Assembly (NCBI GenBank): GCA_945897435.1 | Contig: CAMDFJ010000006.1 | Span: 1 to 61,755, forward strand | Reading direction: 5' to 3' | From: Candidatus Kuenenia stuttgartensis | GTDB taxonomy: Bacteria; Planctomycetota; Planctomycetia; Pirellulales; UBA1268 | Length of the DNA stretch: 61,755 nt | Shown here: in pieces, positions 2,456 through 56,155 of the stretch | Layout of the letters: every line of letters starts with the position of its first letter | How positions within the stretch are numbered: the stretch's first letter is position 1 | Made by a program: the position numbers and the translations under genes | Notes under the pieces: model-generated | What the model saw: only the letters and a program-made list of their open reading frames with translations | The model's database searches: none | What the model was told of the DNA's origin: nothing

Positions 2456-2515
2456 GGGGCTGCCCAAGCCCCGAGCGGGTTGTGAGTGTCGAGGCATGAC
2501 AGGCTGAAGCCTGTC
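2456..2515. repeat. Hairpin plus solo copy of dispersed palindrome M1
   Basis: Within the 261-base intergenic region 2331-2591 are two inverted repeats. The first is GGGGCT, five bases, AGCCCC (2456-2472). The second is GACAGGCTGAAGCCTGTC (2498-2515), identical to palindromes at 10032 and 40321 where it sits beside the larger structured repeats. Here it stands alone. The rest of the region has a TAGACT (2555-2560) that could be the -10 box of the next gene, which has a plausible AGGAG-type ribosome site at about 2580. Confidence 0.75.
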
Positions 2516-2591
2516 CCACATCGGGACTGAAAAACCGCAAAAGCCGAAGATCGATAGACTGGCGTCGGACGAGAACGAAAGGAGACCGACC

Positions 2592-8941: not shown

Positions 8942-9991
8942 TCAGGCCTCTCGCCCAGCCCGGCGGCCACCGCTGCGATCTGTACCGGGGGTGACGTCGA
9001 GTTCGAGATCGTCCTGTTCACCCCGTTCAAGACGCTCCCAGGCGATGGCTCCCATGGCGGCATTGTCGGTGCAGAGTTCCCGAGGCGGCACGAATACCGA
9101 CAGGCCTCGATTCCGACCCAGCCGTTCGAGCGACTCCCGCAGCAGCGTATTTGCCGTCACCCCGCCTCCGACCAGCAGCGAACGACAGCCTGTCCGCTCC
9201 AGTGCCAGCCCGACCTTTGCGAGGATTGCATCGACCGCGGCCTGCTGGAACGATGCCGCGAGGTCGGCCAGCCGCTGACCGGTCGGTGGCGGTGTGTCGG
9301 CAGCGGCTCCGGGCGGTCGCACGAGATATCGCAGGGCGGTCTTCAGGCCGCTGAAACTGAGATCGATCCGCGCCTGGTCGCTGGCCAGCGGCCGCGGTAA
9401 TCGATGGGCCTTCGGATTGCCACCAGTCGCCGCCCGTTCAATCTGCGGTCCGCCCGGATAACCGAGGCCGAGAAGGCTGGCCGCCTTGTCGAAGGCCTCG
9501 CCCACGGCGTCGTCGATCGTGCCTCCGAGTCGTTCGAGATCGAGCGGCCCCCGGACGCGGAAGAGCGACGTATGGCCTCCGCTGGCGACGAGTCCGACAG
9601 CGGGATAGAGGTCGGCGAGAGGGTATGCCAGCCGGCAGGCGTAGAGATGGGCTGCGATGTGGTCGTATCCGACGACCGGAATGCCGAGCGTGGCGGCGAT
9701 CCCCTTGGCGGCCGAAAGACCCACGAGCAGCGAACCGACGAGACCGGGCCTGACCGCCACGGCCACGGCCTCGAGTTGCTGCCGACCGATGCCCGACCGA
9801 GTCATCGCCTCGTCGATCACCGGAATGATCCGTTCGACATGTGCCCGGCTGGCCAGTTCCGGCACGACACCCCGCCAACGGGCATGGAGGGCGTCCTGAC
9901 TGGCGACCACGCTCGAGAGCACGAGGCGGTTTCGGGAGACGATCGCAGCGGCCGTCTCATCGCAAGTCGTTTCAATACAAAGCAGCGGCAT
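8942..9991 (-). CDS. tsaD: tRNA N6-adenosine threonylcarbamoyltransferase
   Basis: A 349-residue TsaD/Kae1 protein that transfers threonylcarbamoyl to A37 of ANN-decoding tRNAs, working with TsaB, TsaC and TsaE (none in this window). It begins MPLLCIETTCDET, the family start. ASRAHVERIIP lies near 49-59, the metal-binding HxxxH as DHIAAH near 110-115, and the C-terminal CTDNAAMGA near 305-313. The gene is convergent with dnaB, with 31 bases between. A structured repeat array lies upstream. Confidence 0.97.
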   Translation of the reverse strand: MPLLCIETTCDETAAAIVSRNRLVLSSVVASQDALHARWRGVVPELASRAHVERIIPVIDEAMTRSGIGRQQLEAVAVAVRPGLVGSLLVGLSAAKGIAATLGIPVVGYDHIAAHLYACRLAYPLADLYPAVGLVASGGHTSLFRVRGPLDLERLGGTIDDAVGEAFDKAASLLGLGYPGGPQIERAATGGNPKAHRLPRPLASDQARIDLSFSGLKTALRYLVRPPGAAADTPPPTGQRLADLAASFQQAAVDAILAKVGLALERTGCRSLLVGGGVTANTLLRESLERLGRNRGLSVFVPPRELCTDNAAMGAIAWERLERGEQDDLELDVTPGTDRSGGRRAGREA

Positions 9992-10031: not shown

Positions 10032-10049
10032 GACAGGCTGAAGCCTGTC
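10032..10049. repeat. Palindrome M1, copy next to array A
   Basis: GACAGGCTGAAGCCTGTC can form an 8-bp perfect hairpin around GA. The same 18 bases occur at 2498 and 40321. Here and at 40321 it is followed by CCCAC, a short spacer and then the M2-M3-M4 unit. Confidence 0.85.
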
Positions 10050-10060
10050 CCACATCGGAC

Positions 10061-10144
10061 AGAGGCCAGGGCCGGAGGCCCGGGTAAACACCAGCGACCG
10101 GAGGTCGCCAAGGAAAACTCGGCACGATGCCGAGATTTTCCGTG
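10061..10144. repeat. Structured repeat unit A1 (hairpins M2-M3-M4)
   Basis: This 84-base unit holds three consecutive hairpins: M2 GGGCC-GGA-GGCCC, M3 GCGACC-GGA-GGTCGC and M4 CTCGGCA-CGA-TGCCGAG, the last flanked by GGAAAA and TTTTCC, which can extend the stem. It is repeated in tandem after 4 bases. Homologous units near 40251-40433 keep the stems paired while their sequences differ. Read on the minus strand it lies downstream of the DUF1207 gene. Confidence 0.85.
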
Positions 10145-10148
10145 CAGC

Positions 10149-10232
10149 AGAGGCCAGGGCCGGAGGCCCGGGTAAACACCAGCGACCGGAGGTCGCCAAG
10201 GAAAACTCGGCGGGATGCCGAGATTTTCCGTG
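10149..10232. repeat. Structured repeat unit A2 (hairpins M2-M3-M4)
   Basis: A second copy of the 84-base unit, offset by exactly 88 bases from A1 and differing only at two bases in the M4 loop region (CGG for CAC). Its end lies only 3 bases from the TGA (10236-10238) of the minus-strand DUF1207 gene. In that gene's transcript M4 would form the first hairpin after the stop, with an A-tract before and a U-tract after, as in a bidirectional terminator. Confidence 0.85.
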
Positions 10233-10235
10233 AAT

Positions 10236-11399
10236 TCAGTAGTCGTACCAGACGCCGAAGCCGTAGCGGTTCTGGTTGTAGAACACGAACTCGTACTGCG
10301 GATCGGAGCCGTAGAGATATTCGAACCCGAGCCGGAACAGCTTCTCGCTGGCCCGTCCCCGCCAGGCCCAGCCCGTCTGCACGCAGATGTTGCCGCCCCA
10401 GTCGAGTTCCTGCCGGGTCATGCCGTTGACTGCCAGGAACGGCGTGCCCAATGCCCCGGTCGGCCGCGCCTGAATCAGTTCCGTGCCAAACTGAAATTCC
10501 CAGGGCTCCGAACCGCCGGCGTTGAAGAACGCCCAGCCGACCTCCCCGTAGAGTCGCATCCAGTCTCGCGGGTAATACGAGTTGCCCCAGACGATGCAGT
10601 CGCGGACGTAGTTGACCCTTGGAAAAGAGTGATACTTGAGCATTGCCTCGTCGCCGAGGTGGGCGCTGTTGTGATAGTAGGCGAGTTTTGTCTGCCAGCG
10701 GCCGACTCCATAGACGAGAGGAACACCAAACCGATAGTCACCCGACCGCAGATCGCGGTCATCCTCGGGGTCGAGTCGCACGAAGGCGGCACCCTCGACC
10801 TGCACCTCGAAGCCCTGCGGATGAACGACGGGATCGGATCCATACCGCAGGATCGAGACCCGACCGCCGAGCGTCGTGTCCCAAAGGGTGCCCTCTCGAC
10901 TGGAGGGCTGAAAGACTCCCGGGTCGGTGTCGAAATACATCACCGTACCGATCCGCGGCTCCTTGGGACCGGCGAGGTAACTCGTGTAGATCAGGTTGTT
11001 GGGCATGATCTGCCAGGACCAGGGTTCCGGCGCCCAGAGATCACCGATCCGATCGGACGGCAATTCATCGGGGGACAGCGGCCGCGATCGTTCCTCGGCG
11101 AACGGTTCGTAGACCACATCCGGAATCGCGCCGGGAAACATCGGATCCATCGAAGGCTGCGACTCCAGCCTCGCGGATGGCGGCGACGGGAGGGGGCTCG
11201 AAAGGCTCTCGGCCGGCGATTCCAGGGGTGTCGGGATATCGGCCGCCCTCCAGCCATCCTGGCCGTGGACTTCCAGATCAGAACCAGAGAACAGGCCGAG
11301 CATCAGCGTCACCGCCATTCCCACGATTCGCGCGCAGACGATCCGGGCCGCTGAACGGCGTTCGGACGACGAGACCGAGAGAGGTTGGGGCGTGGGCAT
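10236..11399 (-). CDS. DUF1207 family protein, predicted exported outer-envelope protein
   Basis: A 387-residue protein matching DUF1207. The N-terminus has a basic stretch and a hydrophobic segment (IVGMAVTLMLGLFSG near 25-39), consistent with an export signal. A Pro/Ser-rich linker follows, then from about residue 110 an aromatic, alternating sequence (WSWQIMPNNLIYTSYLAG, GFGVWYDY at the very end). A terminal aromatic residue and alternating polarity suggest an outer-membrane beta-barrel. No enzymatic motif is visible. The start is the ATG at 11399. The 203 bases upstream to the next gene hold nothing I recognise. Confidence 0.8.
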   Translation of the reverse strand: MPTPQPLSVSSSERRSAARIVCARIVGMAVTLMLGLFSGSDLEVHGQDGWRAADIPTPLESPAESLSSPLPSPPSARLESQPSMDPMFPGAIPDVVYEPFAEERSRPLSPDELPSDRIGDLWAPEPWSWQIMPNNLIYTSYLAGPKEPRIGTVMYFDTDPGVFQPSSREGTLWDTTLGGRVSILRYGSDPVVHPQGFEVQVEGAAFVRLDPEDDRDLRSGDYRFGVPLVYGVGRWQTKLAYYHNSAHLGDEAMLKYHSFPRVNYVRDCIVWGNSYYPRDWMRLYGEVGWAFFNAGGSEPWEFQFGTELIQARPTGALGTPFLAVNGMTRQELDWGGNICVQTGWAWRGRASEKLFRLGFEYLYGSDPQYEFVFYNQNRYGFGVWYDY

Positions 11400-40160: not shown

Positions 40161-40250
40161 GCGGATTCCTCCCTGGAGCGGCCTCAATCGGCGGGAAGCC
40201 TACCACGCGACCGACCGCCGCTGCCACGTCCCACGGCCGCAGGGGTTGGG

Positions 40251-40310
40251 AGCGAGCCAGCCGGCGGAGCCAGCCTAGGAAAACCGGACACGATGTCCGG
40301 GCTTTTCGTG
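40251..40310. repeat. Structured repeat unit B1 (diverged M3-M4)
   Basis: A partial, diverged copy of the repeat. M3 is GCCGGC-GGA-GCCAGC with one mismatch, and M4 is CCGGACA-CGA-TGTCCGG flanked by GGAAAA and CTTTTC. M2 is not clear. It lies in the 281-base gap between phoU and the DUF11 gene. Confidence 0.7.
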
Positions 40311-40320
40311 AAGCACCCAC

Positions 40321-40338
40321 GACAGGCTGAAGCCTGTC
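40321..40338. repeat. Palindrome M1, copy in array B
   Basis: An exact copy of GACAGGCTGAAGCCTGTC, placed between units B1 and B2 and followed by CCCAC as in the copy at 10032. Confidence 0.85.
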
Positions 40339-40350
40339 CCACTTCCGACA

Positions 40351-40433
40351 AGGGTTAGGCCAGGATGGCCGGGTCAGCACCAGCAACCGGAAGTTGCCAA
40401 GGAAAACCGGACACGATGTCCGGGTTTTCCGTG
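40351..40433. repeat. Structured repeat unit B2 (hairpins M2-M3-M4)
   Basis: An 83-base homologue of units A1/A2: M2 GGCCA-GGA-TGGCC, M3 GCAAC-CGGAA-GTTGC and M4 CCGGACA-CGA-TGTCCGG inside GGAAAA/TTTTCC. Relative to A1 each stem has changed on both sides and stays paired, whereas the flanking sequence CCAAGGAAAA and the loops are conserved. It ends 8 bases from the phoU stop codon (40442-40444). Confidence 0.85.
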
Positions 40434-40441
40434 AAGCCAGC

Positions 40442-41101
40442 TCACTCGCTGGCCCGATGGCGGACGATGTCCCCCTCCACCATGTAGATCACGTCCTCGG
40501 CCACGTTCGTCGCCATATCGGCAATCCGCTCGATGTGCTTCGAGACCGAGTTCACCCGCAGCAGGTTCTCGACGTTCTCAGGGTTTTGCTGGATGCCGCG
40601 AAGCACCTTGCGACGGATCTGCTGGCGACACTCGTCGACCGCGTCATCCTCCTCCCGCACCTGACGGGCAAGGGCGGGATCGGCGTTGACGACGGCATCG
40701 AGGCACTGCTTCACCATCTCCTGGGCCTGCATCGCCATCGAGCGGATCTCCGGCGGCATGTCACGGGGATCCTGATTGGCGAGTTGGCCCACCCGCTTGG
40801 CGATGTTCTTGGCGAGGTCTCCCATCCGCTCGAGATCGTTGTTGATCTTCAGCACGGCCACCACGAACCGCAGATCGGCCGCCACGGGCTGGTAGAGGGC
40901 GAGGATCTTGAGGCATTCCTCCTCCACCTCGACCTCCATCCTGTCGATCTCCTCGTCGTTCGCGGTGACCCGCTGGGCGAGGTGGACGTCGCGATTGATG
41001 AGCGCTGTGATCGACTTTGAAATCGCCTCCTCGACGAGCGTGCCGACGCGGAGGATCTTCTCCTTGAGCTGGTCGACCTGTCGTTCAATGTGGCGGGGCA
41101 T
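40442..41101 (-). CDS. phoU: Phosphate signalling complex protein PhoU
   Basis: A 219-residue cytoplasmic PhoU with two three-helix PhoU repeats (about 15-105 and 115-210). It damps PstSCAB transport and Pho signalling. Family marks are the two metal-associated segments, of which one reads DLERMGDLAKNIAKR near 88-102 and the second HIERIADMATNVAEDVIYMV near 188-207. ATG 41101 begins MPRHIERQVDQL. It is the last gene of the pst operon, 44 bases after pstB. Confidence 0.96.
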   Translation of the reverse strand: MPRHIERQVDQLKEKILRVGTLVEEAISKSITALINRDVHLAQRVTANDEEIDRMEVEVEEECLKILALYQPVAADLRFVVAVLKINNDLERMGDLAKNIAKRVGQLANQDPRDMPPEIRSMAMQAQEMVKQCLDAVVNADPALARQVREEDDAVDECRQQIRRKVLRGIQQNPENVENLLRVNSVSKHIERIADMATNVAEDVIYMVEGDIVRHRASE

Positions 41102-54743: not shown

Positions 54744-54813
54744 GACCGCATCTTACAGGAGGAGCTTCTCCATCCCAAAGCGGAACTGATCTCGACCTCC
54801 TCCCCTCCCAGGC

Positions 54814-54830
54814 ACCCGGCAGTGCCGGGT
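54814..54830 (-). terminator. Hairpin between the BBP7 gene and phhB
   Basis: ACCCGGC-AGT-GCCGGGT forms a perfect 7-bp stem 62 bases after the BBP7 stop (minus strand). There is no T-run on the minus strand, so termination there would be weak; on the plus strand it is followed by TCTTG. This is the only structure seen in the 149-base gap. Confidence 0.35.
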
Positions 54831-54892
54831 TCTTGCCAGCGGGCGGAACTGGCCAGGCCGTGCCGGCCGTGACGCCCTGATTTTGCCGGAAT

Positions 54893-56155
54893 CTAATACC
54901 GAGCCTCGAAGCCGGCGAATCCGCCGTGGATGATCGTGCTCGAGCCGGCAGTGATGCCCGAGAGGTCGGCGGCGGTCGTGACGTCGCCCGGCCACTGCCC
55001 ATCAGCCTGGGCGATGTTGCCGACTCCGACCACGCGATATCCGACCGACAGGCTCCAGTGATCGGTCACGTCCCAGGCCAGTCCCGTGTCGGCCGATCCC
55101 AGCCAGGAGAAGACGCCGAGCGTCGAGTGGACGTTGACGGGAGCACCGGAGGCAAACACCGCCGGCGTCCCCGTCGACGTGGCCAGTGATGAGGTGTTGG
55201 TGATCGTGTTGCCTGCAAGCAGGAACTTCGAAACCGTCGAGAACCGCACCCGGGGGAGGAGTCGCCAGTCAAACTTGGCCCCCAGCTGTCCGCCGTAGAG
55301 GTTGTTGTTGGTGGCCACGGCGAAGTCGAGCGGAGTCGCCGCCAGCGCCGGGTCTCCTGAGGTGGTGGCGAGCGTCAGCACGTCCTCCAACTGGAAGAAG
55401 CGGAAACCGGCCAGCCAGATCAGGCTCATCGGCCGACTGCCGTCGGCGGGATCCCGGGAAAGAAACTCCGGCCGGTCGCCGGGCGCGTACAGCCAGTTCA
55501 CCTCGATATCGTTGACCAGATCGGACCGGCTGATCTGCTGGGCCGTGGCGCCGCTCAGGTAGTCGGCCGCCGGCAGGCCGCCGACTGTCGCGTTGCTCGC
55601 CTGAGGTATCGCGTTGATGCCGCTGCCGGATACCGCAGCGCTCGAGTCCATTCCGTAGACACCCCAGTAGATGAATTCGACGGCGTTCCGCTGCTGGGGG
55701 CCGAACCAGCGGCCGATGTGGAGGTCGACGCCGCCCGGCCAGGACACCGCAGCGGAGGAGGTCCGGAGCTGCGTCACCCCGGCGAGCGGTTGCATCGTCG
55801 GCGTCCCGGCGGGAAGCGTGCGGGTCATCACGAGCCCGGTTGCACCGGCGAACCAGCGTGGCCACTGCGGTGGGGCGGCGGGCAGCACCGCGGCCGGCAG
55901 TCCTGCGAAGGCATCGGTATCGAGTGGGTCGGGCACGTAGAGCGGCACGGGAGTCGGAACAGGCTCGACGGCTGCAGGAGGAGCGTCGATCGCGGCGGCG
56001 ATGCTGGGCAGCGGTTCGGCCTCCGCTGAAACGGAAACCTGCGCCCATGCCAGCAGAACAGCCATCGCCGCACAGACCACCGCTGCGGCGGCCGGGCCGC
56101 GGCAGACCGGCGATGATCGGGCGTGATCGAAGGCTGTCGACATCTGGAAGGCCAT
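54893..56155 (-). CDS. BBP7/DUF1551 family outer-membrane beta-barrel protein
   Basis: A 420-residue protein of the BBP7 family, found mainly in planctomycetes. A signal or anchor lies near 20-45 (AAAVVCAAMAVLLAWAQV), followed by a Pro/Ala-rich linker to about 100. The barrel region runs from about 105 to the end: PRWFAGATGLVMTRTL, DLHIGRWFGPQQRNAVEFIY, NDIEVNWLYAPG and the terminal GFEARY with a closing aromatic residue. The start may be ATG 56155 or 56143. Probable location is the outer membrane; the function is unknown. It is divergent from folC, with about 120 bases between. Confidence 0.85.
   Translation of the reverse strand: MAFQMSTAFDHARSSPVCRGPAAAAVVCAAMAVLLAWAQVSVSAEAEPLPSIAAAIDAPPAAVEPVPTPVPLYVPDPLDTDAFAGLPAAVLPAAPPQWPRWFAGATGLVMTRTLPAGTPTMQPLAGVTQLRTSSAAVSWPGGVDLHIGRWFGPQQRNAVEFIYWGVYGMDSSAAVSGSGINAIPQASNATVGGLPAADYLSGATAQQISRSDLVNDIEVNWLYAPGDRPEFLSRDPADGSRPMSLIWLAGFRFFQLEDVLTLATTSGDPALAATPLDFAVATNNNLYGGQLGAKFDWRLLPRVRFSTVSKFLLAGNTITNTSSLATSTGTPAVFASGAPVNVHSTLGVFSWLGSADTGLAWDVTDHWSLSVGYRVVGVGNIAQADGQWPGDVTTAADLSGITAGSSTIIHGGFAGFEARY

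Follow-up and report, generated by a model that had tools for sequence, protein, structure and literature searches.

The REPs of the GTAG super-family are known to use the TAG of their head as a stop codon, to occur also as GTGG variants and in sub-families with complementary stems, and to have members among the planctomycetes (PMC3733652). Modified REPs in BIMEs keep their palindromes, "suggesting selection for complementary mutations" (Nunvar et al. 2010, PMC2817692), and the key observation of the preliminary description of the arrays treated here is thus a known REP trait. Published REPs include those of genomes from which the RAYT has been lost and the transposase-less CGTC group; a flanking RAYT is therefore usual, but not obligatory. 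The class-3 TnpA-Y1 proteins of Planctomycetes go with high-copy atypical hairpins that have a CnGA foot (PMC6006769), and for REPs of E. coli that lie at most 15 nt from a stop codon, ribosome stalling is reported in work that a passage of PMC12306157 cites.

The window, i.e. the whole stretch of 61,755 nucleotides that we analysed, is one contig of a 3.0 Mb genome (205 contigs, 96% complete), and it holds two arrays of hairpins, A and B, together with a third unit and a lone M1 (Table 1). No family could be named for the arrays in the preliminary description; REP/BIME-like is a name that fits, and it is likely that they represent mosaics of REP-type hairpins in the manner of BIMEs, made of non-autonomous repeated DNA that has spread as modules and is retained solely outside genes. 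High copy number, extragenic sites, matched stem changes, a mosaic order, the GTGG or GTAG head of M1 and one-base-exact junctions are all direct observations. Array A is made up of an M1 followed by two M2-M3-M4 units of 88 nt. The hairpin loops are 3-4 nt, and the array folds better than 200 of 200 dinucleotide shuffles (z = -8.7). An Rfam scan of the window gave no match above the gathering score. The M1 sequence of array A has 95 exact copies in its own genome. The second unit of array A ends where the minus-strand DUF1207 gene has its stop (TGA at 10236-10238), and the junction there is STOP-A-TTCACGG; the second unit of array B is positioned 3' of phoU, and the third unit is likewise at a gene end, with the junction TAG-A-TTCCGG. 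On re-check, the sequence and coordinates of the arrays and the alternative stems first quoted for M2, M3 and M4 were all correct. What had been taken for a kept connector, CCAAGGAAAA, is instead the outer arm of M4, with its GGAAAA paired to, and co-varying with, TTTTCC.

Table 1. Hairpin modules and adjoining genes in the window, numbered from its first nucleotide
Feature	Position	Strand	Basis
Lone M1 with GTGG head	2498..2519	-	copy search and head scoring
tsaD, other flank of array A	8942-9991	-	
M1 of array A, REP-type	10032..10053; hairpin GACAGGCTTCAGCCTGTC 10032-10049	-	sequence
GTGG head of array A M1	10050-10053	minus-strand reading	sequence
Array A unit 1	10061..10150	+	covariance model, 106.8 bits; alignment A1
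Array A unit 1 modules	M2 10069-10081, M3 10094-10108, M4 10112-10141		
Array A unit 2	10149..10238	+	covariance model, 103 bits
Array A unit 2 modules	M2 10157-10169, M3 10182-10196, M4 10200-10229		
DUF1207 gene, 3' end abutted by array A	10236..11318	-	Pfam of flanking genes
Array B unit 1, decayed M2	40227..40316; M3 40260-40274, M4 40278-40307	+	65.2 bits
Array B M1	40321..40342; hairpin 40321-40338, GTGG head 40339-40342	-	sequence
Array B unit 2, well preserved	40350..40439	+	96.6 bits
Array B unit 2 modules	M2 40358-40370, M3 40383-40397, M4 40401-40430		
phoU	40442-41101	-	Pfam of flanking genes
Third unit, strongly decayed	54803..54895	+	29.8 bits, E = 0.00035 in 0.79 Mb
Gene ending at the third unit	54893-56155	-	

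The genome of the window has 71 BLAST matches to array A, and the copy search by covariance model that the preliminary description had suggested gives about 109 M2-M3-M4 units there (E<=0.01). The element is thus genomic and multi-copy, and what was first noticed is real but understated. Many contigs of the assembly terminate within or beside repeats, and two such stretches have the same gene end; with repeats at so many contig ends, the MAG probably understates how many copies there are. Among 60 genomes of this taxonomic family, M2-M3-M4 units occur in 38, and within one genus-level group the number of copies per genome spans from 0 to at least 72. The related MAGs are freshwater "Planctomycetia", and a scan of a collection with the M3 core gave a few planctomycete freshwater MAGs as well as matches in unrelated bacteria that resemble chance. 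There are also extra palindromes with GGA/TCC centres (GGCCATCCTGGCC, GACGCCATCCTGGCGTC) beyond M1-M4, which suggest further modules sharing the loop.

Compensatory changes of the stems, first noticed by comparing arrays A and B, hold up across many copies, where the pairing is kept. In an alignment of M2-M3-M4 from 57 units (A1), for which the structure was not used in aligning, paired cells make up 96.1% compared to 86.7% in shuffles, 98 cells are doubly changed (20.9 in shuffles, at most 20 with slid partners), and 10 of 24 pairs are changed on both sides (6.8 in shuffles, at most 4 with slid partners). The outer arm of M4, for instance, varies as GGAAAA/TTTTCC, GCAAAC/GTTTGC and GCAAAA/TTTTGC within the own genome, and as GCGAAA/TTTCGC, GGCAAG/CTTGCC, GGAACG/CGTTCC and GGGAAT/ATTCCC in relatives. 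For a tree-aware test we fitted 111 distinct units from several genomes to the covariance model (alignment A2), and used our own R-scape-like G-test with 100 nulls that re-place substitutions on a FastTree tree. With this tree, which ignores recombination between modules, nine column pairs are significant at E < 0.05; eight of them coincide with proposed pairs of M3 or M4, and the remaining one is off by a single column in M4. The sequence is conserved too, namely the GGA loops, the linkers CACCAGC and GCCAAG, and the CACG foot.

The preliminary description took the pattern as selection on RNA or single-stranded DNA structure, and not on sequence. The pairing-preserving changes speak for this, but it does not stand as worded, since G-U pairs are scarce and sequence is conserved as well. 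When pair 58-74, the inner foot of M4, is excluded, the stem cells of M2-M4 comprise 2440 Watson-Crick, 26 G-U and 17 A-C pairs, which is a G-U share of 1.0% with G-U no more frequent than A-C, and on the tree there are 105 inferred double changes from one Watson-Crick pair to another against single steps of 17 G-U and 14 A-C. RNase P RNA from 30 genomes of the same family, given the same treatment, has 384 G-U and 18 A-C pairs in 3353 cells, i.e. 11.5% G-U and a G-U:A-C ratio of about 20:1. With G-U this scarce and no strand bias in comparison with RNase P, the M2-M4 stems look like strand-symmetric DNA palindromes rather than selected RNA, and near-exclusive Watson-Crick switching could also be obtained by recombination of modules or by copying from arm to arm, without any selection on RNA. 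Pairs in M1 are asymmetric on the tagged strand of G001, a genome of the same genus in which M1 has a GTAG head (25 G-T vs 2 A-C), and number 11 G-T vs 17 A-C in the window's genome; for M1, one tagged strand might matter. Covariation within repeated palindromes need not imply a functional RNA, and a comparison of G-U pairs and strand symmetry against RNase P is a simple discriminator.

To see where the units lie, we ran the covariance model on an unbiased sample, 0.79 Mb from the own genome and 1.18 Mb from G001, with genes predicted by our own codon-usage script. None of the 51 units (31 in the own genome and 20 in G001) lies within a predicted gene, and the M4 side faces the 3' end of a gene in 18 of 19 arrays of the own genome and 16 of 17 in G001. 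At 24 gene ends CACG[GC] comes exactly 3 nt after the stop, compared to at most 5 for each of the other offsets from 0 to 59, and all three stops (TGA, TAG, TAA) occur at M4 junctions. C stands ahead of the stop at 13 of 14 such junctions in the own genome (baseline 75/138, p = 0.004) and at 9 of 11 in relatives (baseline 18/77, p = 0.0003), and the consensus of the M4-end junction is CTRR-N-TW-CACG. The feet of M4 are of three sorts, CTGA, CTAG and CTAA, with CTGA among the two commonest. If transcribed with the upstream gene, the unit would form a 3'-UTR hairpin that begins 6 nt past the stop.

For M1, the same-genus genome offers a textbook case of a REP with a GTAG head. The 1.18-Mb sample of G001 contains 82 M1 hairpins with a GTAG foot; in 58 cases an M1 begins exactly behind a stop, 57 of these stops being GTAG, so that 58 of the 881 predicted genes in the sample (~6.6%) have an M1 immediately after the stop. 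In the window's genome 56 of the M1 copies scored have a GTGG head, and no M1 is locked to a stop codon. The GTRG head is confined to M1; M2, M3 and M4 are without it, and the M4 foot is CTRR-N-TTCACG. Orthologues have similar C-termini in 8 of 14 cases where the GTAG stop is followed by M1 and in 14 of 23 where it is not. Since C-termini are alike and the turnover of GTAG is equal, M1 probably inserts behind a GTAG that is already there; the other option, that M1 supplies its own stop codon, is disfavoured by the same comparison, small as the numbers are. The final codon in G001 is AAG in 32 of the 58 genes that M1 follows, and in 14 of the 103 that end in GTAG but have no M1.

Orthologous sites show turnover between relatives. 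At the site of array A, the DUF1207 stop is separated from the start of tsaD by two bases in G001 and by one in G002, both of the same genus, and four genomes of other genera (G013, G014, G008, G010) have M4-like hairpins with different stems; the site of array B shows the same behaviour. Of the own-genome sites that could be located in G001, one carries a complete M4-M3 whose stem is different, two hold remnants that keep the STOP-N-TTCAC junction, and the others include several with M1 alone and several empty ones. Old sites, losses, new insertions at sites once emptied and concerted change may all play a part and are not fully separable, and the orthologous-site comparisons gave no reconstruction of a target duplication or a clean two-sided insertion.

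The BIME-like mosaics would have been spread by a HuH-type single-strand nuclease (IS200/IS605, TnpA-REP-like) that reads the hairpin together with its foot tetranucleotide, and joins the copies behind a matching tetranucleotide, which would be GTAG for M1 and, for the M4 end, CTRR one base before TTCACG. Stops preceded by G or C would be such target sites, and insertion there would leave the gene intact. After the spread, the stems would diverge to matched sub-families, and a unit behind a stop would be transcribed as a 3'-UTR hairpin starting at the distance given above, where it may, by analogy with the REPs of E. coli, stall terminating ribosomes and protect or trim mRNA 3' ends.

In the own genome, 96% complete, neither a Y1 transposase (PF01797) nor a class-3 HuH-Y1 protein was found. 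The RAYTs of relatives are not supported as mobilisers, as other inverted repeats flank those genes, and their presence does not follow copy number (p = 0.69); the RAYT-type genes have an inverted repeat like AAAAGGTGCCAGCCACCAAATCTGGGTAA...CCCAGATTTGGTGGCTGGCACCTTTT at their flanks, in a TIRtron layout. The weak PF01797 matches found in repeat-rich genomes come from class-3-like HuH-Y1 proteins (xHVH, W, Y....Q), present in 10 of 60 genomes. That these class-3 enzymes of the family (xHVH, Y....Q) mobilise the units is unlikely, in spite of five of the ten carriers being among the most repeat-rich genomes, a weak correlation of presence with copy number (p = 0.03), a unit situated 86 nt from a class-3 gene in one genome and another just upstream in a second, and the frequency of CTGA among the M4 feet, beside the published CnGA foot (PMC6006769); the proteins are lacking in the window's genome and in four of its five same-genus relatives, and the hairpins that directly bracket their genes are different ones, so that flanking repeats do not support them as mobilisers. 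In G002, G308, G298, G311 and G022 separate long-hairpin repeats bracket the class-3-like genes, as with GAAGCCCGAGGCGTAAGCCGA...TCGGCTCACGCCTCGGGCTTC in G002, and these repeats, which are found also elsewhere in those genomes, are likely the cognate repeats of the class-3 genes. There is some chance, albeit a modest one, that M2-M3-M4 is a compound stop-codon-targeted element with a CTRR-reading enzyme of its own, neither RAYT nor class-3 HuH. If so, it would be a third kind of REP-like system, with the terminal hairpin placed single-base-exactly behind native stops of any type.

The position behind genes could also mean that the unit is a 3'-UTR RNA element of the host, with three hairpins selected for the transcript end, mRNA stability or translation termination and with copies made by recombination. 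The distance to the stop codon and the orientation are fixed, every hairpin would be co-transcribed with the upstream gene, array A has four terminator-like matches, and some orthologous gene ends are occupied across genera. We still hold it to be unlikely, because relatives do not keep the U-tracts, because G-U pairs in M2-M4 are rare and strand-symmetric, unlike those of RNase P, and because copy number varies so widely within a genus. The T-tract of M4 is replaced in relatives together with its partner arm (TTTTCC to CTTGCC, CGTTCC, ATTCCC or TTTCGC), and as the U-tract, though present in array A, is not conserved, intrinsic termination is not the shared function and was rejected as such. 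An RNA that sequesters CsrA by its GGA loops does not agree with the UCC loops of gene-sense transcripts, and no promoter-like site was seen; an integron attC, to which the post-stop position might point, does not agree with copies behind many unrelated chromosomal genes and with sister genomes that have the gene without the site. It is improbable that the structure is not selected at all, so that template switching or arm-to-arm gene conversion perfects the palindromes and ordinary recombination between intergenic repeats spreads them. The strand-symmetric excess of Watson-Crick double changes would fit, as would half-palindromes fused mid-way and near-identical units within an array, but the one-base-exact link to the stop, the preferred base before it, the orientation bias and the GTAG head would be left unexplained.

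Compared with known systems, the REP/BIME-like arrays agree with the GTAG super-family (Di Nocera et al. 2013, PMC3733652) in having short GC-rich hairpins, loops of the 2-4 nt size class and a GTAG/GTGG head, in lying outside and 3' of genes with the TAG of the head as stop, in the presence of PVC members and in the sub-families with complementary stem changes. They differ in that M2, M3 and M4 are joined in a constant compound unit that lacks the GTRG head, that M4 has a CTRR foot one base ahead of TTCACG, and that G-T pairs are scarce in M2-M4. With BIMEs (PMC2817692) they share regularly spaced modules, mosaic arrays, tandem copies and palindromes kept by matched changes, but no cognate RAYT flanked by the repeat was found, either in the own genome or with the RAYTs of relatives. 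The class-3 TnpA-Y1 repeats (PMC6006769) are likewise atypical hairpins of planctomycetes, present in high copy number and with a foot other than GTAG; theirs is CnGA, whereas here it is CTRR, other hairpins bracket the class-3 genes, and the window's genome is without such a gene. The missing enzyme, the compound unit and the CTRR foot are what is distinctive here. With these arrays, an uncultured lineage of planctomycetes gains a REP/BIME-like family that is well populated. Its copies number in the hundreds, orthologous gene ends are filled in one genome and empty in another, and sister genomes have two types of stop-locked junction, all of which makes the target choice of REPs and their stop-proximal effect directly testable. 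The REPs of E. coli, as far as they are cited in PMC12306157, are alike in placing a hairpin shortly after the stop, where by analogy an effect on terminating ribosomes is possible, whereas the distance is here fixed to one base in many genes.
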